DNA of 20,154 bases, from NCBI RefSeq assembly GCF_000003605.2, contig NW_003109103.1:218699-238852 (forward strand). The letters run 5' to 3'. Under the pieces are notes generated by a model, which was given only the letters and a program-made list of their open reading frames with translations, was not told where the DNA came from and ran no database searches. The position numbers and the translations under genes were made by a program. Below are positions 881 through 20,154 of this stretch, one piece after another; position 1 is the first letter of the stretch, and every line of letters begins with the position of its first letter. This stretch comes from Saccoglossus kowalevskii. Its lineage: Eukaryota > Hemichordata > Enteropneusta > Harrimaniidae.

Positions 881-1603
881 GCATGTGCATATGTTCTGGA
901 TAAAGTACTAGACACATGCAACGAATGGAGGCTTATTTTTTGATATATATCTCAGAAATATATGTCTCAATGAAAATAGACTTGCATACCAACAGCAATT
1001 GGACATTAATTATCCATATCAACGAAAACAACACAAATATCTGTATTCACCACAGGAGTGAAAATAAATGAACAACTGGATATGCATGAGAATAGGACTT
1101 TTGTTTTGTTTCAGCAATAAATTGTTTCCATTACCAACACCACATGATTTTATTTATTGATACAAATTTGTGCTAAACATCCAAGTAAACATAGGTGAAT
1201 TTCACAGTAAAAAGTTGAAAAGCGAAAGACAACTGAGGTCAGAAAAACATGTTTATTACATGAAAGCTGGATATACGCAGAATACACAAGTTACCAATAC
1301 TTTGTGAAATTTACGATGTCTCATCTCAGCAACCTCACATTGTTATTTCACATGCTTCATAGGCAGTTGATCCAGAAAACTGACACACTATTCTGTCCCA
1401 GGTTCATTAAATTTAATGTTTTAAAGTCTAGCCATTGCAAGTTTGTAGATCTTTTATATATTATATTTATATCGTGGGAGCAAATACTCGTTTTTCTTGT
1501 TTATTATCACACCTGAGTGACTAGACAGGTGATTTAGAAACAGTGCCATAAATTACTATTTTATGAGTGTGACCAAGTTGTGATAAATGAGAGCAGTGTT
1601 TAC

Positions 1604-4600
1604 CTTTAAATGCTTCATAGTCAACACCTTTCCTATTGTAACACAAGAACACAGAGCATTCTAACTTAATGGGTTTAGTATCAGAGGTAAATGAAGCACA
1701 GTGGACTTCATCACCCTCTCCACCCATGCAGTCACTCCACTCAGCCAGGTAGTAACCAGTATGGATCTGTACCCCACTGTGTTTCAATGCATTGGTTATA
1801 GCTTTGTCAATTGTAGAATTGTTGAAACACGTTGGTTGGTAGTTCAGCGGTGGTTGCACCATGATGATACGTTCACCAGGTATTCCCATCATCAGTAAGG
1901 TTTGAATAGTGGTGTAGACATCCAATGTGTGGCCATATATCAGTACTTTCCCTGTAATCCAAGTCATGGTGTGGTTAATACACATTTGTTAATGTTATAC
2001 TTGAATAGGTACGCAATGTGCAATAGAAAAATATATACACCTGATAAATCAGAATGATTTAGAAACATTTTCAGCCCATATATTGAACATATACCAATGA
2101 ACTTTTTTTCTTTCTCATGGATTGACTAATCTAAGGGTGTAATCTCTTGTCTATCTCAGACAAGTACATGTTGTTACATATCAATTAACACACACCGACA
2201 AAAGTATTTCTTTATTAAAGTGACTTAACTGTAAGTTGTTAAATTCACATTAATCAAAATTTATCATTCAGATGGGTTAGACCTCAATTGTGCCAAAAGG
2301 GAACAGTCCATTATGTTACAGGGAGGACAAATTTACCGCACCCGTCCTACCAGGGTACCAAGCTTTAAAAATCATCTATTTTAGGGAGGTGAGTGCTTAG
2401 TAAAGCAACCTCTATAAAAAGTTGTCCAGCTGCCAATTTTTGTTCATCTTGTTTATAAAATAAAATTGCGAAGTGTGTTAATTCATGGTTATTGCAACGT
2501 TATTATTGCTTTCAACAAAACTTGAAGTAATATCATTGGCACTGATTTTGACAAAAAATGGCTTGTTTAAAAAACGGTTGATTCACAAAGCGTGGAAGAT
2601 GTATTTAACACCTGTCACAGCCATCAAGCAATCATTGTCAAAGTCTAGTTTACCCACACAATATTCACAATAGTCACAATAGACACTAGAAATATTCAAA
2701 AAAGTATAGTGATTCAATGACCAAGTATCATGGCTTGACAGTCTAATTTTGGAAGGGTACTAAATTGAACGTGACCTGAAATAAAAATCCCCAAAGGGAG
2801 GGATGGCATATAGTCTAGGTTGAGTGCTAAGTCATGCACACAAGTATGATGATATTCACACACATGAAAACATAATTATCATAACTAACAGTTTTGCGAG
2901 ATGTACTCTCTTGCCTTGCGAATTCTCCCAGCTGGGCTCACTTTAAAAAGACGTTTTAATAATATAAAGTGAATGTCAAAATCTACCTTCTGTATCAAGT
3001 AAATTTTTGGAGATCCACACTTTAGCCTGGAAAGCATCATATTCGTCATTAATAGTGAACACATTACTGGGTACAACCCCTGTGTAATGCCTATTAGGGT
3101 TGTTTGGTACTTCTTCATTGGTCACTAAATCATCAATATTAGCTTCAGTCGGTGCACTTATCTGATACTGTTGACCTGTACATAGAATGAGATGATCATA
3201 GGGTACTTTAGCTCCACCGGTGACGACCACATACTTGCTGCTTCTGTACAGATAAATGGAAAAAAGAAAGTGAATGAACAGTGATATTTTAGCAATAGAG
3301 CTATATATGACTATATGTATCTGATGTTTAGTGGTGTGTTTAGTACTTTTGAATTCCTGGAGATAGGTTGTCTATTATATTTTCAAAAACTGATCTCATT
3401 TGTAGTAGACAGATACCAAGTTCAGGTAAAATAGATGCATGCATGAGCATTCAAGTTCAAGCCATATGGACTATGTGCTACTACCATTATCTTGATTAGC
3501 TGGTATGCGTACTGACTTTTCGTGCTGTCCACCTGTTGACCTTTCTACAGATTCCTCAGATATGCAAATAATTAAACAAGGTTAAGCTAAGTATATGCAA
3601 AGTAGAAATCCTATCTTGCATTCAAGTTTTTTTGGAGGATGCTAGCTACCACAATATACTCTCAAGATTAAATGTGACACACCAAATAAGAGGATATACT
3701 GCTAAGTAACGTTACGATAAAACTTAACACATCATTTGCTGGTGCCATTATATTTCATTCACTTTAGCCATTTCTGAAGACTTTCAGAAAGCGAAGTGTT
3801 AAAATTAAACATAACGAACACATTTCAAACACAAGCTTTTTGTATATATCACTGAGAACCAAGTAACTTGTACCACTACTTATCAGAGAATAAAAGTGTG
3901 ATGTGTTAAGTTTAATTTAATTTAGTTTAGTTTAAATGGTTTTGAAGTTACCAGTAACATACAAATTGTAATATAAACTAAGGACAAAACAATGATTTAC
4001 ATTTATTACACAAAAGGAATTGGAATATAAATTTTGTTTGTATCTTTGATTGACAAACACACTGCAAATGAGAGTATATTACTTGTTACGTGTACCTGTT
4101 GATAGCAACCATCTTAGCACAGACAACATTAACCCATGTTCTCAATGATATCTGTGACAATTCATGCTGCATATAACACAGACTGCTGGATAAGAAGTTA
4201 TCTCTGATGTCATCTGGAGGAAGCTCTCCTGGTAAACCATTTGGTGATATCAAAGTCAGATTATTAAATCTTAGATGTGGACTAAAATCAAGAGAAAAAA
4301 AACATTATACAAACGGATCAATACAGCCATGCATACAGCAATGGATTGTGCAGAAATCACAGCTGACTGGATGTTGAGATTGGGAGAAAAAGTAACTCAA
4401 ACCAGTGACTAAATTTACAGTAATGCAAGCATATAATCCTGTGTCTGTATTTATTTTTAATGAAGATAGGAAAAATGAAAGCAAACTAGGCAATATTTTA
4501 AATCAGGCACATATACTCACCAGAAAGTTAATGTTTCTAAAAATGATATACCAACATCTGAGGCTCCAACCACAACAATTCTAGCATTCACTGTCACTTT

Positions 4601-4648
4601 AGGTTCCAGAGTGAGTTTACGATTGATATGATTCAGTGCATACCTCTC
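1604..4648 (-). CDS. CFAP61: CFAP61 exons 18-21: Rossmann / FAD-reductase-like region (residues 702-1007)
   Basis: Exons 4648-4521, 4281-4096, 3243-2987 and 1951-1604 encode a region resembling pyridine-nucleotide-disulfide oxidoreductases. [17 protein letters not shown] has the beta-strand/glycine-loop/helix pattern of a dinucleotide-binding site, but the loop is GASDVG rather than GxGxx[16 protein letters not shown] resembles the ATG-like motif of flavin reductases. [20 protein letters not shown] then looks like the start of a second Rossmann unit. Human CFAP61 shows the same order. The last visible exon ends in phase 1 at AAAG|GTAAAC, and the rest of the protein is not in the window. Confidence 0.92.
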
Positions 4649-7600
4649 CTACAAACATATAACAAAAGAGATGAGAGAATGAGAGTAGACTCTCCCAAGT
4701 TGGGTTTCTAGCACCAGGAGTCAACTCATAAAGTTTACCTCACTTTCATACATTTTTTGGGTTACAGTTCCCTTTATCATAATGAAATTGTAAGTTATTT
4801 ACCAATATGAAGAAGTTAAAATTACAGATGACAAAAACGACATAAAACACAATTACGGATACTAGTAATATATTTCAATAAAAGGTCCCAACTTTTTATG
4901 AACTTTGTTCTTCTGACACTTATTGTTATTGTTTTTGACTCTCACCTCTTCTTTGGACACCCTTTCTGAGGGTGCATTTTCTCCTAGATCTTCCAATGGA
5001 TAGATGATCTGTCGCCTTGCTCTCACGGGAACCATGAAATTCAAGGCTGACACCAAGGAATGATGCTGAATAGTCTGAAGTAAAAATATAACAATACACA
5101 TGTAGTATGAATTTACAGACCAATGGTACACAACTTTGCCCAAGTGTCAATTAATGCAGACAAATTTAATGGAGATTTAGCTGTAGTATGTTGGCTTACC
5201 TCGTCTGTGGAGTACGGTGGATACACGGGATAGTAGAGACATGAATGATGCGACTGCCTCAGAATCTCCTTCATGAAGTGTTTCGAATAATGTTGAAATA
5301 TTGGATTCAGTGCAAAGTGGTGTAAATGTCCGTGTTCATGTCTTCTGTGATGGTTAAAGTAGATGAAGTCTTCAATATTGTAATGTGAACGAATGTATTC
5401 AATGTCTTCTTCTTGTCTTGTCACGGCCACCCCGACTATCTGTTTTAGGCAGCAGGCAACAAATGCTTGGATTGGTGTGCCATTCTGGAAGAAGGAAACG
5501 TGTACCTAAATTTGACTTTTACAACATACATTACAGCATTAAAAGGGGTCAAAATAAAAAAATATAGTTGGACAAAAATGTTTTGGTGTGTTCTATATTA
5601 TATACATGGAAGAACAATAACCTCATTATTTCTGTCCATCTTATAGGAACAGCGCCACCATAGGTTGGAAAAAAAGCACCACCACAGATGAATAAAAAAT
5701 TAACTGAATTCTTATGATACATGGGACTACATACATCCACGAACAAATAATTCAGACAATAGTATATTTGAATTACTTGAATTAAAATTGACATGTGTAT
5801 ATACGTTACTGTGTCTATAATCAAAACAGTTTATTTTCTACCTGTAAAGTGAGGTAAATATAAATGTTTGCTGTAATTTTGATGATTAAATGGTATTCAT
5901 TGCGAAAGTGGCTGACACTCCTTGTCATAACCTCAGAGAAATGGTTACTGCTACAAAATTTCACAATTTCCATTGTCATAAAAAATTGTCCCTTGCGAAA
6001 GTGAGTAGTTTACGGTATGAGTTTCCAGAAAATGTTTTATTAAAATGTTCACAATATTTATCGACTAAAATATGTAAAGAGCATTCAGAGATTATAAATA
6101 TAAATCTTGATATAAACTTACAACATCTCGTCTCGCAATGTTGTACTGCTTGAGATCGGCAATTAAGTTATCGTGATGGTGTAGGCTCTTAATAACATTC
6201 TGGATAGAGTCCATGTCACTCGTACACACAGGTCGTACCAAAAAATTTTGAAGTAATCCCGATCTGTTGAATACATACAATTCCTGCGCGAGAGTACTAG
6301 GACATCTGGGTGTTACCCTCTAATTGGTGAGAAACAAGGAAAGTTTAGTATGTGGTATTTTTATTTCAGGGATTGAAACAAGATACAAGTAGAAATCACA
6401 AACAGCTTACCACAAAACTTTGCAGCATTGGGAATTCGGGAACAAGGTGTGGCATGGTGACAACACAGAAGTCTCTGTCTGGGAAAAGATCAAAAGCCAT
6501 GGGTAGGAAATCTAGAGACCTGAAACACAAACATTAAGAATATTTTTGTTATTTGTAAGTACGTTAAATACTAAAAGGCTCGTTTGTATGCGATTCTTAC
6601 ATTATGTAAGTTATCCTGCTATACTTGCCTCATTTCATAGCGTTCATCAATACAGAATAGCTGTATACAGAAACAATTACTAGGTCCATTGTAAACTGAT
6701 TTGAACGTCGTTCTCATTTTTCGATCTGGTAACTGTGGAGTTGGTGTTCTTTCAGGGGCTGGCGGCTCTTCCTCAAATTCTTCCTGTACTGGTGATTTTA
6801 CTGAGCCAGACACCTATGACATATAAACAGCAAAGGTGACTCAAACAAGATAGACTTTGATAGATAGATCTATTGTGGTTTTTATGACTATACTATTAAA
6901 ATTAACATCAACAAAACACTGAATATAAGAAATATTTTACCTTGGAAGAAGCACCAGACTTGGCGGACTCTGGGCGACTACCTTCACTTTGTAAGGAACT
7001 ACAACTGAAGCAAGAAGAGATGGCAGAGAATAAGAAAGTGATGTTTGTAGATTTCACATTTCATTGTATCAAGAGATACTCAATACTTAATAATAACTTA
7101 GATTTGGTGGGTCTCATACAAAGGACAAGGGCTGTTGATTTGCATGATTGGGAATTTGCAACTGAGATTACTGCGATACTACAGTGAAAAGTTGTAATCA
7201 GTTTTATTAACTGCACAAATGAATGAACATTTCACTATTATTCAATACTTGGATCAAAATCTACCAAAGATTAACAAATGACAATAAAGACACAAAATCA
7301 TTCTAGCAGTATCACATGCCTTCAACAACTGAGACCTAAGCATCATAAGCATAATTATTGAGTGCTTGGACAAGATGAGATAAAAAAAAAAAACATTCAC
7401 CCACCTTCCTCCCATTTGTATATCACTAAGTTTTCGTTTGATTTTCACTTCACTTTCACTAGCAGCCTCTGTAAATAACAAAAAAAAACATACTTGTATA
7501 AAAAATATGAATGAAAGAAAATGCAAATTATTTTGAATTTGATAATAACACAGTGAACACTGTGAAATATGTATCATGGGTCATACCTCTGGATGCTGGT

Positions 7601-10600
7601 GGTTGTGACTGTGGTGTGGCTTGCTGTGGTAATGGTGTTCCTTTCACACTTGGTGTTTTGCCAGCACCTCCATCCCCTGTGAATGAAGAAAATAGACAAT
7701 GTATAGTAAATGATGCAGTACTTATTTTATAGCATGTATACACATACTGTGGGAGTGACATTACTATTTTATCCATAGTACCTATATTAATTAACACTAT
7801 AAACATGGTGAACAACTATAATAGTAAATATATATTCACAAGACTCGGTACAACATTATAATTAATTACATATAACACAAAGACAATTATTACAGGGGTG
7901 TGATTATTTAATAGAACATCCTTGGAAAACAGCCACAAAAGGTGCGCTATTAGTGACAAGTATGGATGTACGGTATAAATAATGAGTGTGGCTTTGGTAT
8001 TGATATACAAGTCAATCAAATATCAGACATACTGTGACATTCACCAAATAATAAAATGTACTATGTTTTGAGACTTGAACAGTTATAAAAATGTGTTCAT
8101 TGCACAACTTGGTTCTGAGTTTTGAGTGTGTTAAAACGACCAAAAAATCATACATGTATTTTTTTTCAGTTGAAACTTTTCCTATCTTTTACCTTATAAT
8201 CATTATAAGACGATATGAGGTGTTAGTGGAGATGTGTGTGAAACTGAGTAAGTGTGCATGTGTGCAGGCATTGAATGTTAACAATTGAAGCTATTTAGGA
8301 TGCACATGCACACGTGTATAGTAACTGTGTTTTTTATACCGGTAACATTGTTTTGACAACATTGTCACAGCGTGAGCTAGTGATGATGCATGAATGATGC
8401 ATATTCCGTCAACCACTCCAATGTTGGTTGGAAAAATTGTAAACATATTTCATTCCCATATATGTAGTACAGTGTAAGCTCATTTTGGGTGTAAAAATTA
8501 TACACTGAATTGTATTAAACTCTGTGATCATTTTGCAGTAGCAATCCAAACACAATATTTAAAACAATCTATGGGCCAAGTGAAATAAGTCTTCTGGTAA
8601 CCCTTAGTGAAGAACTCAACTCTCTAAAGTTGCACTAGTATTCAGAGATGGTACTTATTAGATTTATTAATGTTTTGGCACATTTATCCGTATATGAAAT
8701 ATTTGATGGAATGATGATGCATGAATTGCAGCACATATGTGGGGAACAATTATAGATTATCTGAAAAACTACAGTCCAAATATCATGAACACATGTGCAT
8801 CAGAACCTAAATGTTTTACCTGGCGTAATACACATAATTAAAATGCAGCTAACAGGCTGAAATCACAAGTCACCTATACTGACTTTGACCACAAGAATGT
8901 GACATCAGTAATGTTTGATATGCTTTATTGAACCTCACCCTAAGTTTAATACCACAAATGAAACTCGCATGATTTCAGACTGTAATCATGCTCAACAAAA
9001 TAAACAATTATTAATACTTGATGAGAACTATATGTACTTTGAGTTGTTAAATTTTATGATAATAAACTAGGAATTATGTGCTGTGCAATAAGATGACTTT
9101 AAAATGTAAATGAATTAATTTATACGTAATAAAATTGGAAGCATTGTCCTGTACCTTCCTCTAACTCATCAAGGTCTTCATCTAGGTGAATGAATGAACA
9201 TGCATATAAAAAATATGTTTAGCATAAAAACAAGCATAAAAAATATGTTAAATGCACTGCTGCCAAGCCACACAGTGTTAGTATTTGCATGTACTAATAA
9301 TGGTATCGGTAATCAAAAAACTAGAAGCATGGAGGTAACCTCCATGCTAGAAGAAACCATGTAATCAAAGACATTAGAGACAATTGCCATGCTCCTTCCA
9401 TTGCCAAACATGCATTAGAACCAGCATAAAATAATATTCCTACTGCAGATGAGATTAAAAGAAAAGTAGTAGCAAATACATGTAGATCATCAAACAAATG
9501 TTCAAGTATTTTAGCATTTGGGCTCACTGAAAGAATACCAACATGCAATAAAATATATGCTTGTGACAAGACATGGTATACATACCTTTCCTTGAACCAG
9601 CAGAGCCTACCCTGTCAGATTTAGTTGTATCTTGGGTACCTGGTCGGTCTTCGGTAATCACAGCTCCAACTGGAGAGGGAGCAGAGGCTGGAAAGAACAG
9701 ATTACAACTCTATTATTTTATAGTTTTATCAAATCAATTTATATAATCAATGGTTTAAAATAAAAACAATGATTTAGTTATAGGTTGAAAATATGAAAAA
9801 CTGTAAATTATGACTCACGTGGTGGTGGTGTTTGTTCCCTCGGGTCTTCCAGTATATCATCTGGATGTGGTTTACGTAAACCATGGAAAGGAGCCAATTC
9901 GAAACAGTCGTTTAAAAGCTCTAAGTTGCTCACTTCACCACAGATACTCATGAATCCTATAGCTGTACCATCATTCTATTGAAGGTAAAATAAGTTTGGA
10001 TCAATATAATTAGATTACTGTAACAGAAATCAAGTCACACAGCTGAGCTCAATACTCATGTAGAGAAGTAAATGGTAACATACCTCTGTAACAAGAGCAT
10101 GGTTATTATCATCTTGAGCTTCAATCAACTCAGCTAGGAAATAGTCACCATACGTTTTAGATAGCATATCACTCTGTCTGTTAAATATTGGAGTCAGATC
10201 ATCATGATCCTCAACACTAAAGAACGAGAAATTACATTTGTTATGACCGCAAAGTGAATACAAAATTAATTGTTTGCAAACATTTCATTATGTTGTATAA
10301 TATCAAAATAATGTAAACAGTTTTATTATTCTACACAAAAACCGATTGATAGAAGACACAAAATAGATGCACAATACAATCAAAATAGACATCAAGTGTA
10401 AGACCAACATAGCGCCACCTAGCTACTCACCGTGCTTTTCTCACAAACAGCACAGGGCAGTGATCATGACGGTAACATACAAAGATTGCGCATTTTTCTA
10501 AGGTGCCAGCATTGCTCTTCTTATCCAGTGGTTTGAAAATATCAGACAAAGAGGATTCTGGGTAGACACCCTGTGGTACAACTAGATATATAAAGTGGAG

Positions 10601-11977
10601 GTCTGGTACAGCATTGAAAGCAGTTCTGAAAACAATCCAGGTTTATTACAGAATTAAATCTAGTGACATAATTAACAAAACAAAATTCTAATAAGCTAAA
10701 AGAAAAACCATGCATTTTGTACAAACCATCCTTACCTGATGATTTCTCTTGCGCTTCCACGTGAGAATTCCTGCTTAGAGACAAAGTAGTGCATAAAGGC
10801 ACTATTCAGTGGCTAGAAAAAAGAATACAAATTATTTATTAACTTGTTGAAGACACACTTCCCAAGTGAATTGATTTGCACATGTATATGCATGTAATGT
10901 TTGTAACAATTAATAATGTAGTAGTAGTAGTATATGTATTGCACATTTTGGTTTATCAATAATCATATCATTTAGTTAATGTTCTTCCCTAGAATTTATC
11001 ACGTTATGGAAGATATATACTCATCATTTTTAATAAAGTTGGGGATGTGAAAAAGAATAACACCCAATGCTACTATGATTACAGTATTGATTCAATGGCC
11101 CAAAAACAAAAGACTGGACCTAAATCAACCCAGCTTAAAGGCAAATACCATTTATCTACAAATACAAAAGAATGGCCATGCTGGGATATACTTACAGTAC
11201 TATCCTCACAGTCATAGTACTGGTTCATCCACTGCTCCCATTTAGCTGGATCCACATCTGTCACATTTGGGAAGTCAAAGAAAGCGGCATGTGCCAAGAC
11301 TTCATCATGGTCATTGTGCAAGGTTACAGCAAGAACCGCCTTCTCACTACAGGAATATTTGAGTCAATAATTAGCGTATGGTACTCGGAATGACTGGGCT
11401 CTCTCTGCATTTTTGCTCATTGCATATACCAGTAGTACTAATTCAATTTGAGTTATTTAGTTAATCTTAAAAATATAACTCAATTTACAATATTTATTAC
11501 TGAAAGAGGAAGCATAGATCTGATTAAATTATTATAGAACTTTTGATCGATATTTGCGATGACACCATTTTGATTATTGTTTCATAGATAATGCAAAGTG
11601 AGAAAGGTCATTCAAGGCATTTACACCTCCAGAAATGTGATTCTAGTAAATCTATAAACTTGCTTGCTCGCAATAAGCTGTGGCGTTCTATCAGTTATTT
11701 GTGTAAGCCTCCAGTTTGCTGGTGGTGAGAAAGCCTTGCTCGCAGTTTAGCAAGTATGCGTGAAGTGTGGTGCGACATGAAGTCATTCTTTCAAGGAACT
11801 CAGGTTCAATTTTATTCACCAAAATACCACTTACATGAGGTGTACAACGTTGACAAGTCCAAATAGCTGTTCTGTAGCATGTGAAACCAATCTTAGAATA
11901 TTTGGTGCATCCAATGATTCAGTCCTCCTTGCATTGATAACCTCAGCAGGGCCATCTGACGAAACTAGGGTCGTCAT
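1604..11977 (-). CDS. CFAP61: CFAP61, 20 coding exons, 3' part beyond left edge
   Basis: The encoded protein is recognisable along its whole length as cilia- and flagella-associated protein 61. In the known family this is a subunit of the calmodulin- and spoke-associated complex at the base of radial spokes in motile cilia. Coding exons, 5' to 3' on the minus strand, are 11977-11835, 11346-11196, 10812-10736, 10625-10431, 10216-10084, 9975-9819, 9687-9586, 9181-9155, 7676-7587, 7468-7405, 6998-6941, 6813-6629, 6519-6411, 6319-6122, 5484-5200, 5074-4946, 4648-4521, 4281-4096, 3243-2987 and 1951-1604. Together they total 3022 nt, or 1007 codons plus one base. Every junction keeps phase, no internal stop appears, and all introns are GT-AG except one GC-AG. 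The start ATG at 11977-11975 gives MTTLVSSDG, which aligns with the family N-terminus. After splicing, an in-frame TAG at 12489-12487 lies upstream with no ATG between. About 230 C-terminal residues, by comparison with the 1237-residue human protein, should lie beyond base 1. Confidence 0.95.
1952..2986. other. CFAP61 intron
   Basis: AT-rich intron of 1035 bases between the two Rossmann-region exons. I see no repeat structure, exon or RNA gene in it. Confidence 0.8.
3244..4095. other. CFAP61 intron holding the inverted-repeat element
   Basis: Apart from the 194-bp inverted-repeat element at 3720-3913 there is only AT-rich sequence, including TTTAATTTAATTTAG-type runs directly to its right. 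Confidence 0.8.
3720..3913. repeat. 194-bp inverted-repeat element, possible MITE
   Basis: AAACTTAACACATCA at 3720-3734 is perfectly inverted at 3899-3913. Between them, TTTCTGAA/TTCAGAAA (3771-3790) forms an 8-bp stem with a 4-base loop. No convincing target duplication flanks the arms and there is no ORF. The size fits a MITE, but the class is not identifiable. It lies in the CFAP61 intron 3244-4095. Confidence 0.45.
4946..6519 (-). CDS. CFAP61: CFAP61 exons 14-17: second conserved region (residues 461-701)
   Basis: Exons 6519-6411, 6319-6122, 5484-5200 and 5074-4946 all start and end in phase 0 after the first split codon. They encode a second, strongly conserved region. Visible blocks are [33 protein letters not shown], the very conserved [19 protein letters not shown], a histidine-rich run ([19 protein letters not shown]), SCLYYPVYP and [18 protein letters not shown]. 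The [17 protein letters not shown] block is essentially identical to human, an unusually high level of conservation for an invertebrate. The position and size of this region suggest a second GNAT-like domain, which is an inference from family organisation rather than something visible in motifs. Confidence 0.93.
5485..6121. other. CFAP61 intron
   Basis: Intron of 637 bases with no recognisable features. Short frames on both strands have no exon-like boundaries. Confidence 0.8.
6629..9975 (-). CDS. CFAP61: CFAP61 exons 7-13: end of N-domain and disordered linker (residues 234-460)
   Basis: Exon 9975-9819 completes the N-terminal domain, with the motif [11 protein letters not shown]. Small exons of 102, 27, 90, 64 and 58 nt follow, encoding roughly residues 286-399. 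This stretch is rich in Pro, Ser, Thr, Gln, Glu and Lys (for example [16 protein letters not shown]) and is very likely unstructured. The matching part of human CFAP61 is also low in complexity and poorly conserved. Exon 6813-6629 adds an acidic, proline-rich stretch ([19 protein letters not shown]) and then re-enters conserved sequence at [13 protein letters not shown]. The three exons at 9687-9586, 9181-9155 and 7676-7587 are multiples of three with phase 1 at both ends, so each can be skipped without a frameshift. The 185-nt exon ends at a GC donor (GAG|GCAAGT). Confidence 0.88.
6999..7404. other. CFAP61 intron
   Basis: Intron of 406 bases between two small linker exons. It contains a short A-run near 7383-7393 and nothing else notable. 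Confidence 0.75.
7677..9154. other. CFAP61 intron upstream of the 90-nt exon
   Basis: The longest complete CFAP61 intron, 1478 bases. I see AT-rich sequence and two copies of GATGATGCATGAAT (about 8383 and 8714), but no mobile element or further exon. Undetected tiny linker exons cannot be excluded. Confidence 0.7.
9182..9585. other. CFAP61 intron between linker exons
   Basis: Intron of 404 bases. It contains the palindrome with direct repeats at 9321-9353, and AAAAATATGTT-type sequence repeated near 9210 and 9240. Nothing else is seen. Confidence 0.75.
9321..9353. repeat. Short palindrome exactly flanked by direct repeats
   Basis: CTAGAAG at 9321-9327 and 9347-9353 brackets a 19-base perfect palindrome whose arm is CATGGAGGT around one central A. 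The symmetry extends into the direct repeats, giving 11-base arms at 9326-9336 and 9338-9348. It lies in a CFAP61 intron. Confidence 0.7.
10084..11977 (-). CDS. CFAP61: CFAP61 exons 2-6: N-terminal GNAT-like region (residues 1-233)
   Basis: These five coding exons encode the conserved N-terminal region, which resembles a GNAT acyltransferase fold in family models. Landmarks are ARRTESLDA near residue 16, [13 protein letters not shown] at 48-60, [11 protein letters not shown] at 99-109, [13 protein letters not shown] near 128-140, the [16 protein letters not shown] junction around residue 190, and [20 protein letters not shown] near 210-229. These blocks follow the order and spacing of the human protein. 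Donors are canonical: GTAAGT, GTAAGT, GTAAGG, GTGAGT and GTATGT. Whether the GNAT-like fold binds acetyl-CoA cannot be judged from sequence. Confidence 0.93.
10813..11834. other. Two CFAP61 introns, 10813-11195 and 11347-11834
   Basis: Apart from the 151-nt exon between them (11196-11346), these introns show only AT-rich sequence and a short TAG microsatellite near 10917-10932. Confidence 0.75.
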
Positions 11978-11987
11978 ATTTACTTTG

Positions 11988-12454
11988 CTGTGAAGAAAGA
12001 AAACAAATGAGTTAAATATAAATATAATATTTATATTATAGGAGCTCACCCTTTTTCTATCAACTGTGTACAGAGAAAGCAAATTTGAGGACATGATATC
12101 TGAAATTAAAAACTGGCAAACAACAACCATACAAGAAGAAATATTCATAAACAAAAATAATAAAAGGTTTTGGTATATTTTAACTTGCTTCCTGCTCCGT
12201 ATTACTGCCTTGTGTAAATATAAAAGATGCAACCTTCGAATCATTTGATGCGAAATGAAAAAAAAATGGTGACCAGAAATTTGACCATTCTAAGAGTCAC
12301 CTTAAAATTAGTCAATCAATTCATGTGTTATGAACTGTTATGATACTGTTCAGCCGCGGATACTTCGGTGTTTAACGTGTAGTACATTTTTATTCATGTA
12401 AGGGTAACAGGCTGGAAAAAGCAATATATGAACAATCAAATACGATATATTTAC
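11988..12454. other. CFAP61 leader intron
   Basis: Intron of 467 bases separating the non-coding first exon from the start-codon exon. It contains an AT-only palindrome at 12015-12037, which is likely chance in such AT-rich DNA. Confidence 0.6.
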
Positions 12455-13188: not shown

Positions 13189-16100
13189 ATGGCATCCAGT
13201 GCAGGAAAGGGGAAAACGCCCAAAGTGGCCAAGGTAAGATGTATTAATTTGACACAAGTGTCTAACAGTAACACAAGTGATAATACATGTACAATGATAT
13301 CTCACTATGATGAGCCCAATCGCCCCCTACCAAAATAATTACTATAAATACTTCTAATTTACGGGAGGAAAATGTCCCGAAATTGAGGAAAAACTTGTTC
13401 TTTAGACAGGAGTTCACTGACTTCCGTGAGAGATTATTTTTTCATAATAATATAATAATATGCACTTCGATTACGCACTTATATGTTGAAAAACATTTTC
13501 GATCTCTGAATCGACCCAACAAGATAATATGCATATTTATTTCAAGTTAAATTAAATATATTGGTCTATGTGTATGCACAAGAAAAGGCATAAATGTAAT
13601 TTTTGATCTAAAATGTCCTTTCTGTTCGGTGATGAGCAACAAATGTTGGTGTTTACATTAAACCAAGGACCCTACAATATTGTAGGGTCTATGATTAAAC
13701 CAGTTTTTATTTTATATCACTGTGCATGATTCAGCCTGAAAATGGAGAAAATATTGTTTTGGAATCTAAATTCTATCTTGACACCAATACAGAATGCAAT
13801 TTTTGACCGAAATAACACATAAATTGACCCCCTCCCCCAAATCTATATAACAATTTCTAGGTGAAGTTTGTAGATTTCATTCATAATTAATGCAATTATA
13901 CATGTACATGTAGTTTGGGCAAGCATAAGGATAATATTTCAAAGTAAAAAAATTGGAATACTGCTTGAGATACAGACAGAAAAAAAAAAAAACAGCTGGA
14001 TTAGATTTTTTAGACCACACATATGAATAGAATAAATAATGGACCTCTCTTGTGCTCGATTGTATTCAAGTAGTCACCCAAGATCTCCTTTACTTTTGAA
14101 ACAACTTTTCATGTGGATCTCCGGTTGCTTTTTACAAATATTATTAAATGCAATATCAGAATAACCTATAATGGTTATAAATTGCAAATTCAGTGAAAGC
14201 CAATCATTGTTGGAAAAACAGAATAACATAATAAAATGTTTGGGATATTTTGGGTGGAGAGGAATCATTTATCATTAATTTATATGCAAATTAGCTATTG
14301 TCATTCCACCAATTAAGTTCATGCACTTTCTATGTAGTGAATGACTAGTCCTTACTAAAAAGAAAATGTATTTTAAAAAGTTACTGAGATCATTTTTCCC
14401 ATCTTTCCTTTTATCATAATACTTATTAAATTATTTTTTAAAACTCAACGTTGTAGTTTGTAACATGTTCAAAATAATCATATAAACAATGCTGCTTGGT
14501 CATTTACTTGCAAGTGCATATTGATTGGGATTGACACAGATATGTAATTTATGAATAACTTTTCCTCTTACTCTCATTATAGGTTAAAAATAAAATGCCG
14601 GCAGAAGTTCAAATCACTGCTGAACAGATTCTGAGGGAGGCAAAAGAGAGAGAGCTAGAAGCTGTGCCGCCAGTAAGTACACTGAATCCACTCTATTGTC
14701 TATAATGTTTTAGCATTAATGCTTACTGTCGATAAGGAACCTGCACTAAATATTTATGTGAAGAAATAGTAGTTCTAAATAGAATACTTACTGTAAAATA
14801 CTTTTAGCTGGAATTAATTTTCATTGAAAAAAAAACCTTTTGGCTGTTTTGTATGACATTTATTTTCACTAAATTTTGATGGATTGATTATAAAACAAAG
14901 GAAAAAAAAGTATTTCTACTGGATTTTATTTTCACCGATTTATCCCGTCAGTGAAAATAGCGAAAATTAATTTCTAAGTGAAAATAAAGTACTTTACAGT
15001 ATATAATGGCTAAACTAAGAAATTTCATGTTAATTTATGCTGATTGATATGCTAATGTTATTCTAATTAGTCTCATCTATAACAAAAATTCTCAGGGAGA
15101 GGCCTGAAATGCAACAAGACTTACACTCACACATGCTTCTAATATTATTTTCAGCCCCCAAAGCAGAAGATCACTGATCCAGATGAACTTCAGGAATACC
15201 GACTTAAAAAACGAAAGGAGTTTGAGGACAATATACGAAAAAATAGATCAGTTATGACTAATTGGATAAAATATGCTCAGTGGGAGGAGAGTCAGCGGGA
15301 AGTTGACAGGTGGGTAAGCAACTGGAAGTGTTCACTAAATTCTAATCCTTTTGCTACCAATATCAATAAATATCAATAAATTATGAATGTCTGTATCTCA
15401 TTCAACTGAAATTGAATATGGAAGTTTGTTTTATTTCGACGAATCCAATGGGTCTTTGAGGCTTACTTGCAATAGATCGCAGTGAAGTGGCTGATCTTGA
15501 CACTACTGTACTGTTAAGCAATATTATTGTTTGGATGCAATTTGTTGTTCAACTTTTAAGTTTATTTTTTTTTGTATCTTTCTCTTAGCATTAATTAAGG
15601 GACGACGTCAAAAGATCGATGTCGGATAAAAAACTTATTAGCTTTAGTTTGGGGGTGGGGGGTTTTGACCTCAAAAAGTTTCTATCCTACAAAAACGATT
15701 TTATTTTTTAATGAAGTCAAAAAAATCTTGGAGTATTTGTTATTCGTTTTTTTCTATCCAATCATAGCCAAAAATAACACAAAATAAAAAAAAAACATCC
15801 AAGACGAGAAAATGGTTTGGTCCGAGTGTAAAGTCTTTTTACACCCACCCGGTAACCAACTGCTATGCCATACTACTGTCGGATTATCAATTTGTATTTA
15901 ATAGTGAATGTAGTCTGACGCCATGGTCAATATTTATCAATTAAGTTTCAGTGGGGGGTAGGGGGGTTTGGGAAAAAACTAAAGGAATTAAGTTTTTTAT
16001 CCTACATTGAACTTTTGATGTTGTCCCTAATCTGGCTATATGACATGTACTATGGGTCATTACATGTGCCTGCATTTGAGAGTGGGATGTGTCTATTGTC

Positions 16101-16926
16101 AAAATAAGTCATATTTGAATGATTATATATACAATAAATACAATTTTCGGTGTATGTGCACTTCTATTGAAATGTGCTTCGACTAGTAATAGAGCAAATA
16201 TAGTATATCAAATGTTACAAGGTGAATGTTACTTTAGTCTTGTTTTGCTTGTTTATGAATCCATTGCTATGTGTTTGTTTATTTGTTTCTTTCAGAGCCC
16301 GGTCAATCTGGGAGAGAGCATTGGATGTGGATCACAGGAATATCACAATATGGCTAAAATATGCCGAATTAGAAATGAAGTAAGTACTGGTATAATGTAT
16401 ACAATTTTATTGATGTGTTCTTCATTGATTTTGATGGTAGAACAAAACTATTATGCTTGCCATGATGCTTTGTTAATTTATGTGCCATGCTGTGTGATTA
16501 CCAATTTAGCGTTAATGCAAGCTACTTTTTTTCATGCCAATTTCAACCTATGTTGTATTTGTCTGAATTACTCAGCTACATGTATTCTTCAGGCCTACAA
16601 TCATAAGATTGTAATATGTATGGTCGTCATAATTCTTAAGGTGTGGGGATAACAATGTTTTTATTTGCTTTGTTTTCTCTTCAGACATCGTCAGATCAAC
16701 CATGCAAGGAATATATGGGACAGAGCGGTTACGATTCTACCAAGAGCAAATCAGTTCTGGTATAAGTACACTTACATGGAAGAAATGCTTGGCAACACGG
16801 CTGGTGCCAGACAAGTGTTTGAAAGATGGATGGAATGGGAACCGGAGGAGCAAGCATGGTTGTCATATATCAAGATGGAACTTAGATATAAAGAAGTTGA
16901 TAGAGCCAGACAAGTATATGAACGAT
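13189..16926 (+). CDS. CRNKL1: CRNKL1 (crooked neck), 5 coding exons, 3' part beyond right edge
   Basis: The protein is recognisable as crooked-neck-like 1 (yeast Clf1/Syf3), a nuclear scaffold of the Prp19-associated part of the spliceosome. Coding exons are 13189-13233, 14583-14672, 15155-15309, 16296-16379 and 16685-16926, with matching phases. They encode 205 residues plus one base. The start ATG at 13189 gives [15 protein letters not shown], which aligns with the human N-terminus, and an in-frame TGA at 13165-13167 lies upstream. The N-terminus is basic and followed by [23 protein letters not shown] repeats then run through [51 protein letters not shown] and [19 protein letters not shown] to RARQVYER. 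At least 500 further residues (human isoforms are about 690-850 aa) must lie to the right. Intron 5 has no recognisable downstream exon before the window ends. Confidence 0.95.
13234..14582. other. CRNKL1 intron 1
   Basis: Intron of 1349 bases, bounded by AAG|GTAAGA and TATAG|GTTAAA. It contains the 22-bp palindrome with direct repeats and an A-run near 13980. No other element is seen. Confidence 0.85.
13657..13702. repeat. 22-bp perfect palindrome between 9-bp direct repeats
   Basis: The palindrome at 13668-13689 has the arm GACCCTACAAT followed without a spacer by its complement. ATTAAACCA occurs on both sides (13657-13665 and 13694-13702). It lies in CRNKL1 intron 1. Confidence 0.75.
14791..14999. 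mobile_element. 209-bp MITE with TA target duplication (Tc1/mariner-like)
   Basis: The left end begins CTGTAAAATACTTT and the right end finishes AAAGTACTTTACAG, its inverted copy with one mismatch over 14 bases. After a gap the similarity resumes at AATTAATTTTC on both arms. TA lies immediately outside each end, at 14789-14790 and 15000-15001, as expected for the Tc1/mariner superfamily. There is no ORF, so it is non-autonomous. It lies in CRNKL1 intron 2. Confidence 0.72.
15599..16027. mobile_element. 429-bp MITE with TAA target duplication (PIF/Harbinger-like)
   Basis: Terminal inverted repeats of about 39 bases start GGGACGACGTCAAAAG on the left and, as reverse complement, GGGACAACATCAAAAG on the right. 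I count 34 of 39 positions identical, and three of the five differences are CpG on the left versus CpA on the right. TAA flanks both ends (15596-15598, 16028-16030), the 3-bp TWA duplication typical of PIF/Harbinger. G-runs sit inside both ends (15651-15662 and 15953-15972). There is no transposase ORF. It lies in CRNKL1 intron 3. Confidence 0.8.
16380..16684. other. CRNKL1 intron 4
   Basis: Intron of 305 bases, bounded by AA|GTAAGT and TTCAG|ACATCG. Nothing in it stands out. Confidence 0.85.
16685..16926 (+). CDS. CRNKL1: CRNKL1 exon 5 with putative AT-AC donor
   Basis: This exon encodes 81 residues of HAT repeats, from [12 protein letters not shown] to RARQVYER, and is the last CRNKL1 exon visible. 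It follows the acceptor TTTTCTCTTCAG. If read on, the frame gives YILS and a TAA at 16938-16940, but the family continues from YERF into VLVHPDVKNW, so this is not a genuine C-terminus. ATATCCTTT at 16927-16935 matches the U12 donor consensus at every position. Cutting before it leaves a split codon starting with T, as needed for the family Phe. The only nearby GT donor, TTTC|GTAATA at 16937, is poor. Confidence 0.8.
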
Positions 16927-17300
16927 ATATCCTTTCGTAATATGACCCTGCTGGGGGGTTGAAGGATACTTCCTTTATTTGTCGTATTATTATCAGAATT
17001 ATTGTCACTGTGTTCGAAGTTCTCTCAAGGAATTTTTGGATGGCATCTTATTTGCATAAGAGTACAACCTAATTTACATAACAAGTAGATTATTTTGAAA
17101 TAATAGTTTTCTTTAGCATAATAATAATTTGCTGGTGTATTGTTTTCCTGAAAGTTTAAGCGCAATTAAATTGTTTTGCTCGAAGATGCCTTGGAAAAAG
17201 TGATGGGAGTTTACAGCCTCCACTCTGTGCAAAAAAACAACAACTTTCTAGGTAGACCATTGTTAGACTCGTATTGATGTGAATTGATCAATGCCTATTT

Positions 17301-17690
17301 AGCCTTCGCAGACGAAGTCTGCCGAAGGCTTATAGATTGGGTTCTGTCCGTTCTGTTCTGTTCTGTTTTACCTCTTATAACTTTTATATGCTCTGTCCAA
17401 TTTTTTTCCAAATTGGTGCAAATGTATATCTCAATGCCATACATATGCACGCCAAGTATTTTTTTGATTCGCCAAAGTTTCATTGTGTTTTTCTGTGATT
17501 TTCAACATTTTTTTAGTACAAATGCCGAAATTTGCCGGAAAAATCTGAGTTTTAACGACATCTCGCAAGAGAACTGGTAAACCGTATTGCGCATGCGCCA
17601 GTCCAACTGCTGAGGAAATCGGCGGCGATTTCGTCTGAGTATATTGTATTTCGGGACTGTATCTTTCTTTGCACAAGGCTTATATAGATT
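17301..17690 (+). repeat. Hairpin-headed repeat, copy 1
   Basis: The copy opens with a long stem-loop. AGCCTTCG (17301-17308) pairs with CGAAGGCT (17323-17330), and inside it CAGAC pairs with GTCTG around a GAA loop. After the stem come CTTATAGATTGGG, a run of TCTGT units and TTTTACC. A second copy with the same layout but a different stem sequence lies at 20025. The right end is uncertain. AAGGCTTATA recurs at about 17676 and may mark it. It lies in CRNKL1 intron 5. Confidence 0.55.
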
Positions 17691-18030
17691 AAATTCTATC
17701 TCAAAGGTAAGAAACTGTGCTTATGGTATTTATTATGAACTTTGATTTATCCTTTTGTGTCCTGACTTTAGTGAGAAACTAGTGATCGCATAGTGTCACA
17801 TTTTGCCAGAAAAACAGTCCTGCTATTAGTTCAAGAACTGGTTATGAAACGTGTAGATCGAAAGTCTTTCTCGTCATTTAGGAGGCTTGGGAATAACGTT
17901 TGGCATATAAAATACTGGAATAATAAAAACGTAAAAGTTTAGAACACGCTGATCGTGATTCTGTTATGTACGATTGCTATTTCCGGTGTTCATTGGCAAC
18001 TGTAGCAGATTGAAGCTTTGTTTCGTGACG
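17580..18030 (+). promoter_or_regulatory. Promoter-like intronic stretch with NRF1-type site
   Basis: TGCGCATGCGC at 17588-17598 is a full NRF1-type palindrome. A locally CpG-richer stretch (GGCGGCGATTTCG) follows, then a good splice donor, CAAAG|GTAAGA, near 17706. Further right lie TTTCCGG (ETS type) and ATTGGCAAC. It could be an alternative or repeat-borne promoter inside CRNKL1 intron 5. No ORF of interest follows. Confidence 0.25.
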
Positions 18031-18180
18031 ACATATTAGGCTAGAATTATCGAGAAAACACAAGTCAAGTTCGGCCAACCGTGACTGCTTGAAAGCAATG
18101 ATGAAATTGAAAAGTACTGTAATTCAATATCAATGAATCTATCATCACTTTTAAATTACCTTTGAAGTAAATATGATACC

Positions 18181-18200
18181 CGAGTGCATTATTGCACTCG
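18181..18200. repeat. Perfect small hairpin
   Basis: CGAGTGCA (18181-18188) and TGCACTCG (18193-18200) form an 8-bp stem around TTAT. GAAATTGAAA occurs on either side (near 18102 and 18231), so this may be the remnant of a palindromic repeat. Confidence 0.5.
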
Positions 18201-18555
18201 TGACCGGGACCTCCATGCTCCATGCGGTGTTGAAATTGAAATGTTGAAATGTCAACAGAGACACATTTTCCCAATCAGCTATTTATTTCGGTACTGAAGT
18301 CAGGGTGGCAATTTCAATGTTTAGCTACCATAATTTATCTCCATTATGAGCAGGAAAATAAATTACGGACCTCGATTGAGAGGGATTTAACGGTGGCCAT
18401 GTTTTTAAGGGATAGTGAAACAATATTAGGGAGGGGTCAAATTCACGTAATTCTCAATTTTAATGATGTTGACTTAATGGTCATAATTTTTTTTTTAAAA
18501 ACTCCGGATATTATTTTATATAATATTTTAATACAACTACAATATGTTAATTAGT

Positions 18556-18575
18556 ATGCAAATTAATATGCAAAT
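18556..18575. promoter_or_regulatory. Tandem octamer motifs
   Basis: Two exact ATGCAAAT octamers, the POU-factor type, lie 12 bases apart in the same orientation next to the LINE tail. The region is AT-rich and the motif recurs elsewhere, so function is doubtful. Confidence 0.2.
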
Positions 18576-18583
18576 TAGCAGCC

Positions 18584-19616
18584 AATAATAATAATAATAA
18601 TAACTCTATTTAATTAAGCGCAACAATTCCAACATATGAAGATCAAAGGCGCTGATACAATAAACAATCAGCCAAATATTAAAAGCACATTTAAATAAGT
18701 GCGTTTTCAGTCTGGATTTAAAAATGTCTACTGAAGGACTAGAACGAACAGACAGAGGTAATTCATTAAAAAGTTTAGGACCTAAATTTTCAAAAGCACG
18801 GTCTTTGTATAACACCTTGGACTTTTTACTACACATCTGACGAGTTTTAATAAGAAACTTCGATTCAGATCTTAAACTACGACTCGGTACATAAAATTCG
18901 ATTAATTCACATAGATAATTTGGGGCAAAACCATACAAAGATTTATACACTAGTAAAAGTAATTTGAAATTGATTCTTTGTACAACTGGTAACCAATGAA
19001 GTTTAATAAAAATGTCTGTAATGTGGTCATATTTTCGAGCACGAGTGACAAGGCGGGCTGCTGCATTTTGTACACGAATAAGAGGTTTTATCTTAGTTAC
19101 AGGGAGACCAGACAATAATGAATTACAGCTGTCTAAGCGAGAAGATATGAAAGCATGTACCAACTTTTCAGTATCAGATTGGGATAATGATTTACGAATA
19201 CGATTAATATTTCTTAGATGGGAATATCCAGATCTACAAATAGTAGAAATGTGTGTTTCCATAGATAGCTGCGAATCAAACAAGACACCTAAGTTTCTAG
19301 CACTTGACGAAGCACTAACCAATTCTTCACCAATTGCGATACTAGACAAAGGACACGAGTCTTGTGAGAATCTCCGAGACGACATGCACACAAATTCAGT
19401 TTTCGACACATTCAAAAGTAGGAAATTACAAGACATCCAATCGCTAACATCTTGAATACATGTCTGAAGTATCACCCGGGCGCGAATTTGATCATCTTCA
19501 GAAACCGATAAATAAATCTGTGTGTCATCGGCGTAAAAATGATATTTTACGCCGTGACGTCGCAATAACTCGCCCAATGGACGCATGTACATTGAGAACA
19601 ATCTGAGACAATGCAA
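18584..19616 (-). mobile_element. 5'-truncated CR1/L2-like non-LTR retrotransposon
   Basis: A 336-codon ORF, open from about 19616 to its stop at 18608-18606, encodes the C-terminal part of a reverse transcriptase. It contains the catalytic-type block YHFYADDTQIYLS and the C-terminal signature LHWLPVVQRINFKLLLLVYKSLYGFAPNYL seen in CR1/L2-group LINEs. Convincing similarity begins at LFSMYM (about 19597), just after the point where a GxVLGP block would be expected, so the element is 5'-truncated there. The stop is followed almost directly by a (TTA)n tail, read as AATAAT on the plus strand at 18584-18603. The absence of stops suggests a recent insertion. It lies antisense in CRNKL1 intron 5. 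No clear target-site duplication was found. Confidence 0.85.
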
Positions 19617-20024
19617 TCCAGTTCAAAGGAAATTTGACATACACTTAGGTTACATGATCACTACCTCTGCTGATTAGTTTTTTTATGCACTTCTATCTGC
19701 TTTTATATTAAATGTATTTTTTTATATTTTTCTCAATAGTTTTTTTTTATTTCTTTTGATAGCTTGGCATCCATTTGGTTCAGCTCAAGTGAAGTTTTCG
19801 ACACAAGTACTTTGGCTTTTTGCACATTCTTAATATTTTATTTTTGCAGAATCCTGTGAATATTAATTTGACAACTTTGTAGAGTGGAAACTGTTGAATT
19901 AGTTCATCCTAGATTTTGGTAGAACATGTTTAAAATAGTACAGTGTGAACTGCAATTTCTTTCTGGCTGGTATAAATTTATAAAGTAATATTTTTTCGTA
20001 CTAAAAAGACTCAAATATCTTTTT

Positions 20025-20154
20025 AGCTCCGCTGTCGACTTTGTCGAGCGGAGCTTATCATATGAGTGATTGTCCGTCGTCGTCCGTCTCCGTCGTCGTC
20101 CGTGTCAATGTTTTACTTTTTCGACTTCTTCTTGAAAACTACAAGCCTGAATGC
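20025..20154 (+). repeat. Hairpin-headed repeat, copy 2, cut by right edge
   Basis: AGCTCCGCT (20025-20033) pairs with AGCGGAGCT (20047-20055). Inside, CGAC pairs with GTCG around a TTT loop, with two bases bulged. The stem is followed by TATCATATGAG, then tandem GTCCGTC/CGTCGT units, then TTTTAC and a pyrimidine-rich stretch. The order of parts matches the copy at 17301. The element continues beyond the window. Confidence 0.55.

Follow-up and report, generated by a model that had tools for sequence, protein, structure and literature searches.

At this locus the fifth coding exon of a spliceosome gene runs into a word that reads as a minor-class splice donor, a few bases before its reading frame closes, which raises the question of which spliceosome would remove the intron that begins there. 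The sequence read is a 20,154-base window (the whole stretch of DNA analysed) of one contig, and the whole assembly comprises 572 Mb in 4,830 contigs.

A CRNKL1 gene model ending at exon 5

CRNKL1 (crooked neck) has five coding exons placed on the forward strand of the window, and joining them yields an uninterrupted protein reading of 208 residues. They are listed here with splice boundaries marked by a slash and with exon 5 ending as in the reading that we favour:

13189..13233, + strand: CRNKL1 coding exon 1, 15 residues, donor AAG/GTAAGATG (10.3 bits); placed by its open frame, in phase with exon 2
14583..14672, + strand: CRNKL1 coding exon 2, donor CCA/GTAAGTAC (7.1 bits); placed by its open frame, in phase
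15155..15309, + strand: CRNKL1 coding exon 3, donor CAG/GTGGGTAA; tblastn match to human CRNKL1, 62% over 58 residues, the alignment extending a little beyond the exon
16296..16379, + strand: CRNKL1 coding exon 4, donor GAA/GTAAGTAC; tblastn match to human CRNKL1, 86% identity over 29 residues
16685..16926, + strand: CRNKL1 coding exon 5 as it would end before a U12-type AT-AC intron, phase 1, end CGAT/ATATCC

Exon 5 begins at 16685, preceded by ...CTCTTCAG, and matches human CRNKL1 by tblastn at 83% identity in an alignment of 83 residues, of which the final three lie past 16926. Homology thus anchors exons 3, 4 and 5 of the model, with exons 1 and 2 placed by frame alone. Among solved structures phmmer matches exon 5 to Crooked neck-like protein 1 (E 7.7e-63) and the Pfam match is PF23233 HAT_Syf1_CNRKL1_N; by these similarities the gene is CRNKL1, a HAT-repeat protein nearest crooked neck. 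When relatives of exon 5 were sought in the viral_contigs and genome_contigs collections, 3 and 11 stretches respectively matched the search pattern and none encoded a relative. A separate stop-free frame of 177 codons (16119-16652, + strand) spans exon 4 out of the CRNKL1 frame and is probably a chance occurrence.

Two candidate donors before an in-frame stop

The frame of exon 5 meets a stop codon, TAA, at 16938-16940. A donor is needed before it, and the plausible sites are therefore ATATCC at 16927, which would split a codon in phase 1, and a GT at 16937, which would do so in phase 2:

16927..16935, + strand: ATATCCTTT, a complete match to the U12-type AT-AC 5' splice site (9/9, no mismatch)
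16937..16942, + strand: rival U2-type donor TTTC/GTAATA, phase 2, -2.2 bits
16927..16936, + strand: stretch that would be exonic were the rival donor used, T16926 plus AT giving TAT (Tyr), followed by ATC and CTT and by TC as the first two bases of a split codon

The consensus behind the nine-base match is a general one for U12-type AT-AC donors and is not fitted to the host species. A sequence-only reading of this locus had reported a complete minor-spliceosome donor at these nine positions, and the word is there exactly as described. As a bare word it is not rare, with one occurrence on both strands of the window against 0.45 expected and at least one in 35 of 100 shuffled windows; its weight comes from standing where a coding exon ends and not from its presence.

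The principal competitor is an ordinary U2-type GT-AG intron that uses the very weak donor at 16937, in which case exon 5 would end ...YERYIL-S and ATATCCTTT would have arisen by chance from the codons TAT ATC CTT T. Such an intron has in its favour that the great majority of introns are major-class and that this GT stands directly 5' of the in-frame stop. Its donor argues against it. Scored with a general human matrix, which may not suit the host species, it is the weakest of 23 placed donors by more than 7 bits, the 22 others ranging from 5.1 to 12.1 bits in a comparison set of 4 CRNKL1 and 18 CFAP61 donors, the latter picked by eye from open frames in a way that favours strong donors and with homology support for one frame only. 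In simulations from this matrix about 0.6% of donors come out as weak, and 64% of the 2,337 GT sites on both strands of the window score at least as high. The site TTC/GTAATA has the GT but otherwise departs from the U2-type consensus MAG/GTRAGT, so that the description of the competing major-class donor as weak, made from the letters alone, is borne out by the scores. Another GT, at 16914 (CAA/GTATAT), scores better than that at 16937, with 1.4 bits, and was rejected because the conserved VYER-YIL would turn intronic.

The protein across the junction

The sequence-only reading had further held that the reading frame must break at ATATCC, and on this point it was mistaken. Reading through, the codons CGA TAT ATC CTT give R-Y-I-L, which both phmmer and tblastn align to human R-F-V-L, and the orthologue 8xi2_J has R-Y-I-Q at the same columns, so that Y-I is itself found in a relative. 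The three codons concerned are also the commonest of their kind in the exons read (TAT for 7 of 10 Tyr, ATC for 7 of 13 Ile and CTT for 5 of 12 Leu, the junction stretch counted in), as a U2-type intron with a coding ATATCCTTT would have it. A phase-1 U12-type AT-AC donor that follows a T, however, always translates as Y-I-L, so a coincidence is involved in either case: a minor-class donor happens to read as acceptable protein, or acceptable protein happens to spell a complete minor-class donor.

The next residue speaks against the GT. Its use would bring in Ser (TCN), and at that column the four distinct orthologues displayed have Val (human, 9esh_R and 8ro0_J) or Ile (8xi2_J), this view showing five of the 12 distinct matched sequences, two of them human, with the yeast CLF1 rows outside it. 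We take 9esh_R to be from S. pombe and 8ro0_J from C. elegans.

A reported U12-type intron in primate CRNKL1

PMC10098413, in the part available, assays CRNKL1 in human and monkey cells as carrying a U12-type intron, and gives exons 6-7-8 as the span of the CRNKL1 amplicon (Table 1). Translating the primers given there, we obtained EEMLGN for the forward primer, at human residues 159-164, and YARFEE for the reverse, at 221-226 (8c6j_S numbering). The junction in the window corresponds to human residue 208, within this interval; EEMLGN stands within exon 5 of the window, which continues from there without a break to the junction, so that YARFEE has to be encoded by exon 6 or a later exon. Since it is situated between the two primers, the junction falls in the stretch for which the primate U12-type intron is reported, and this argues against a U2-type intron here, which would have to suppose that the primate U12-type intron is the other intron of the interval or was lost or converted in this lineage. 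PMC10098413 is a single source and, in the part available, not a study of intron class, and an amplicon of three exons implies two primate introns in the interval. The comparison with other animals that had been proposed from the sequence accordingly came out in part: a U12-type intron is reported for primates in the same stretch, and the match is one of stretch, with two candidate introns, as far as the available text goes. We found no report in the literature beyond PMC10098413 that joins CRNKL1, THOC2 and U12, and the intron class of CRNKL1 goes unmentioned in the available parts of PMC9895063, PMC9505925 and PMC8999970.

Judged by gene and by the primers flanking the junction, the window intron is like the primate one of exons 6-7-8, and it is probably its counterpart. 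It also resembles the U12-type AT-AC introns of PHB2, KCMF1 and STX6, as the available part of PMC2831892 presents them, in its complete ATATCCTTT donor and its phase 1, with U6atac in the genome. With U2-type GT-AG introns that have weak donors it shares an in-frame GT before a stop, but it differs from them in how far that donor falls below the other 22.

Minor-spliceosome RNAs in the genome

A search with a 37-base U6atac pattern gave two forward matches, and none with the reversed pattern as a control. Both loci match the Rfam model RF00619, one at 136.2 bits and the other at 111.8, where the gathering score is 33:

L015, 1490-1614: U6atac locus (Rfam RF00619)
L016, 1490-1620: U6atac locus (Rfam RF00619)

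The AAAGGA of the U6atac of this genome is complementary to positions +4 to +9 of the donor (U4-C5-C6-U7-U8-U9). The stem loop of the second locus, L016, is altered, and this locus could be either a variant or a pseudogene. For U12 snRNA the Rfam model returned 0 hits in a weak search, in which 44 of 18,940 first-look candidates were scored and controls rang in 0 of 14, and a 37-base pattern allowing up to 3 mismatches, likewise a weak search, had no match. PHB2 was tried as an AT-AC control within the species and dropped, its four matches, at 47-54% identity, being taken for a paralogue.

Weight of the readings

We estimate at roughly 0.94 the probability that exon 5 ends at 16926 (CGAT/ATATCC) and that intron 5 is a U12-type AT-AC intron in phase 1 of a Phe codon. 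Before PMC10098413 was counted, the evidence of the sequence made the same reading somewhat better than an even bet. This first weighing used a likelihood ratio of U12-type to U2-type whose inputs are our own estimates, with AT-AC priors of 1e-3 and 3e-4, set there because minor introns make up <0.5% of introns (PMC2831892) and AT-AC introns 8 to 47% of minor introns in animals having any (PMC7367187, Table 2), as stated in the available parts of the two papers. With inputs generous to the U2-type reading the ratio was 1.2 at the higher prior and 0.4 at the lower; with middle inputs it was 5.1 and 1.5, and with harsh inputs 33 and 10. With primate CRNKL1 reported, in the available text, to have a minor intron in the corresponding stretch, the prior becomes higher by orders of magnitude, and this is the sole cause of the rise to the present figure. 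An ordinary U2-type intron from GT 16937 accordingly retains a small chance, of a few in a hundred.

The central proposal of the sequence-only reading, a U12-type AT-AC intron within a spliceosome gene, is thus strengthened: the donor matches at 9 of 9 positions, the alternative is an outlier in its weakness and would place Ser in a Val/Ile column, U6atac is in the genome, and the primers given in the available part of PMC10098413 lie on either side of the junction. In this account U11/U12 would recognise ATATCCTTT, the AAAGGA of U6atac would then pair with the donor at U4-C5-C6-U7-U8-U9, and the next exon would complete the Phe codon and continue V-L-V-H-P. We infer that the site is used here, that the intron has a branch site and an AC end and is followed by an exon 6, and that its position is identical to that of the primate intron.

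A mixed reading, in which the minor spliceosome acts at ATATCC 16927 and the major spliceosome sometimes at the GT 10 bases downstream, is less probable again than a plain U2-type intron, and we consider it very improbable. The two sites do lie within 10 bases of each other, and cryptic U2-type sites near impaired minor introns have been described (PMC8329584, in the part available), but the phases differ (1 and 2), so a shared acceptor would keep the frame for only one of them.

If the U12-type AT-AC reading is right, this intron with its perfect AT-AC donor is probably the counterpart, in a further animal, of the minor intron reported for primate CRNKL1, and CRNKL1 would join the splicing-factor genes that carry minor introns, SF3A1 and, in fly, a relative of ZRSR2 being those named in the available part of PMC2831892. 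A U12-type intron in CRNKL1 is already known from primates, through the available text of PMC10098413, and no new mechanism is involved. The same text reports that CRNKL1 mRNA is reduced upon perturbation, and this reduction does not amount to evidence that one spliceosome regulates the other. It is a possible but rather unlikely idea that the intron has been kept from this animal to primates because the supply of a factor at the core of the major spliceosome then depends on minor-spliceosome capacity, a dependence that would tie the two machineries together in a conserved way.

The far side of intron 5

The intron runs out of the window:

16927..20154, + strand: readable 5' part of CRNKL1 intron 5, counted from the putative U12-type donor; its 3' end and exon 6 lie outside the window

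Neither tblastn nor an ungapped scan found exon 6 in the window. The 3.2 kb of intron that can be read contain one word near the branch-site consensus TTCCTTRAY, at 16970 and with one mismatch; no matching exon comes after it, and no pairing of a U12-type branch site with such an exon was found in this part. A short intron ending near 17000 was considered and rejected, the reading beyond it being by eye unlike V-L-V-H-P. Human residues 217-277 had no match in the whole genome at E <= 0.001, and residues 413-542, searched genome-wide at E <= 10, had two, namely exon 5 of the window (repeat similarity, E 4.4e-4) and a weak place on another contig (E 0.22). Later CRNKL1 exons were thus found neither in the readable assembly, with these two human pieces, nor in the examined stretches of the same contig, with five human pieces; part of the CRNKL1 neighbourhood reads N. 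These missing exons and unread runs are what could suggest that the gene is broken or misassembled here, with no real intron boundary to explain, but the five exons follow one another correctly and keep the phase, homology to human CRNKL1 supports three of the five, and the missing ones are accounted for by the unread stretch; of the readings considered this is the least probable, and a remote one. Within intron 5 there is also a LINE-like element, a frame of 338 codons on the - strand (18606-19622) with a Pfam RVT_1 match (E 1e-8).

Neighbouring CFAP61

Upstream, CFAP61 (1521-12000, - strand) stands head to head with CRNKL1 (13189-16936, + strand), their start codons about 1.2 kb apart as judged by eye; homology supports the CFAP61 assignment in the frame 1521-1988 only. 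The neighbourhood of the two genes is presumably the same in human. One CFAP61 frame placed by eye (6619-6813, - strand) appears to end GAG/GCAAGTAT, with its donor at 6628, a GC-type donor that otherwise follows the consensus strongly.
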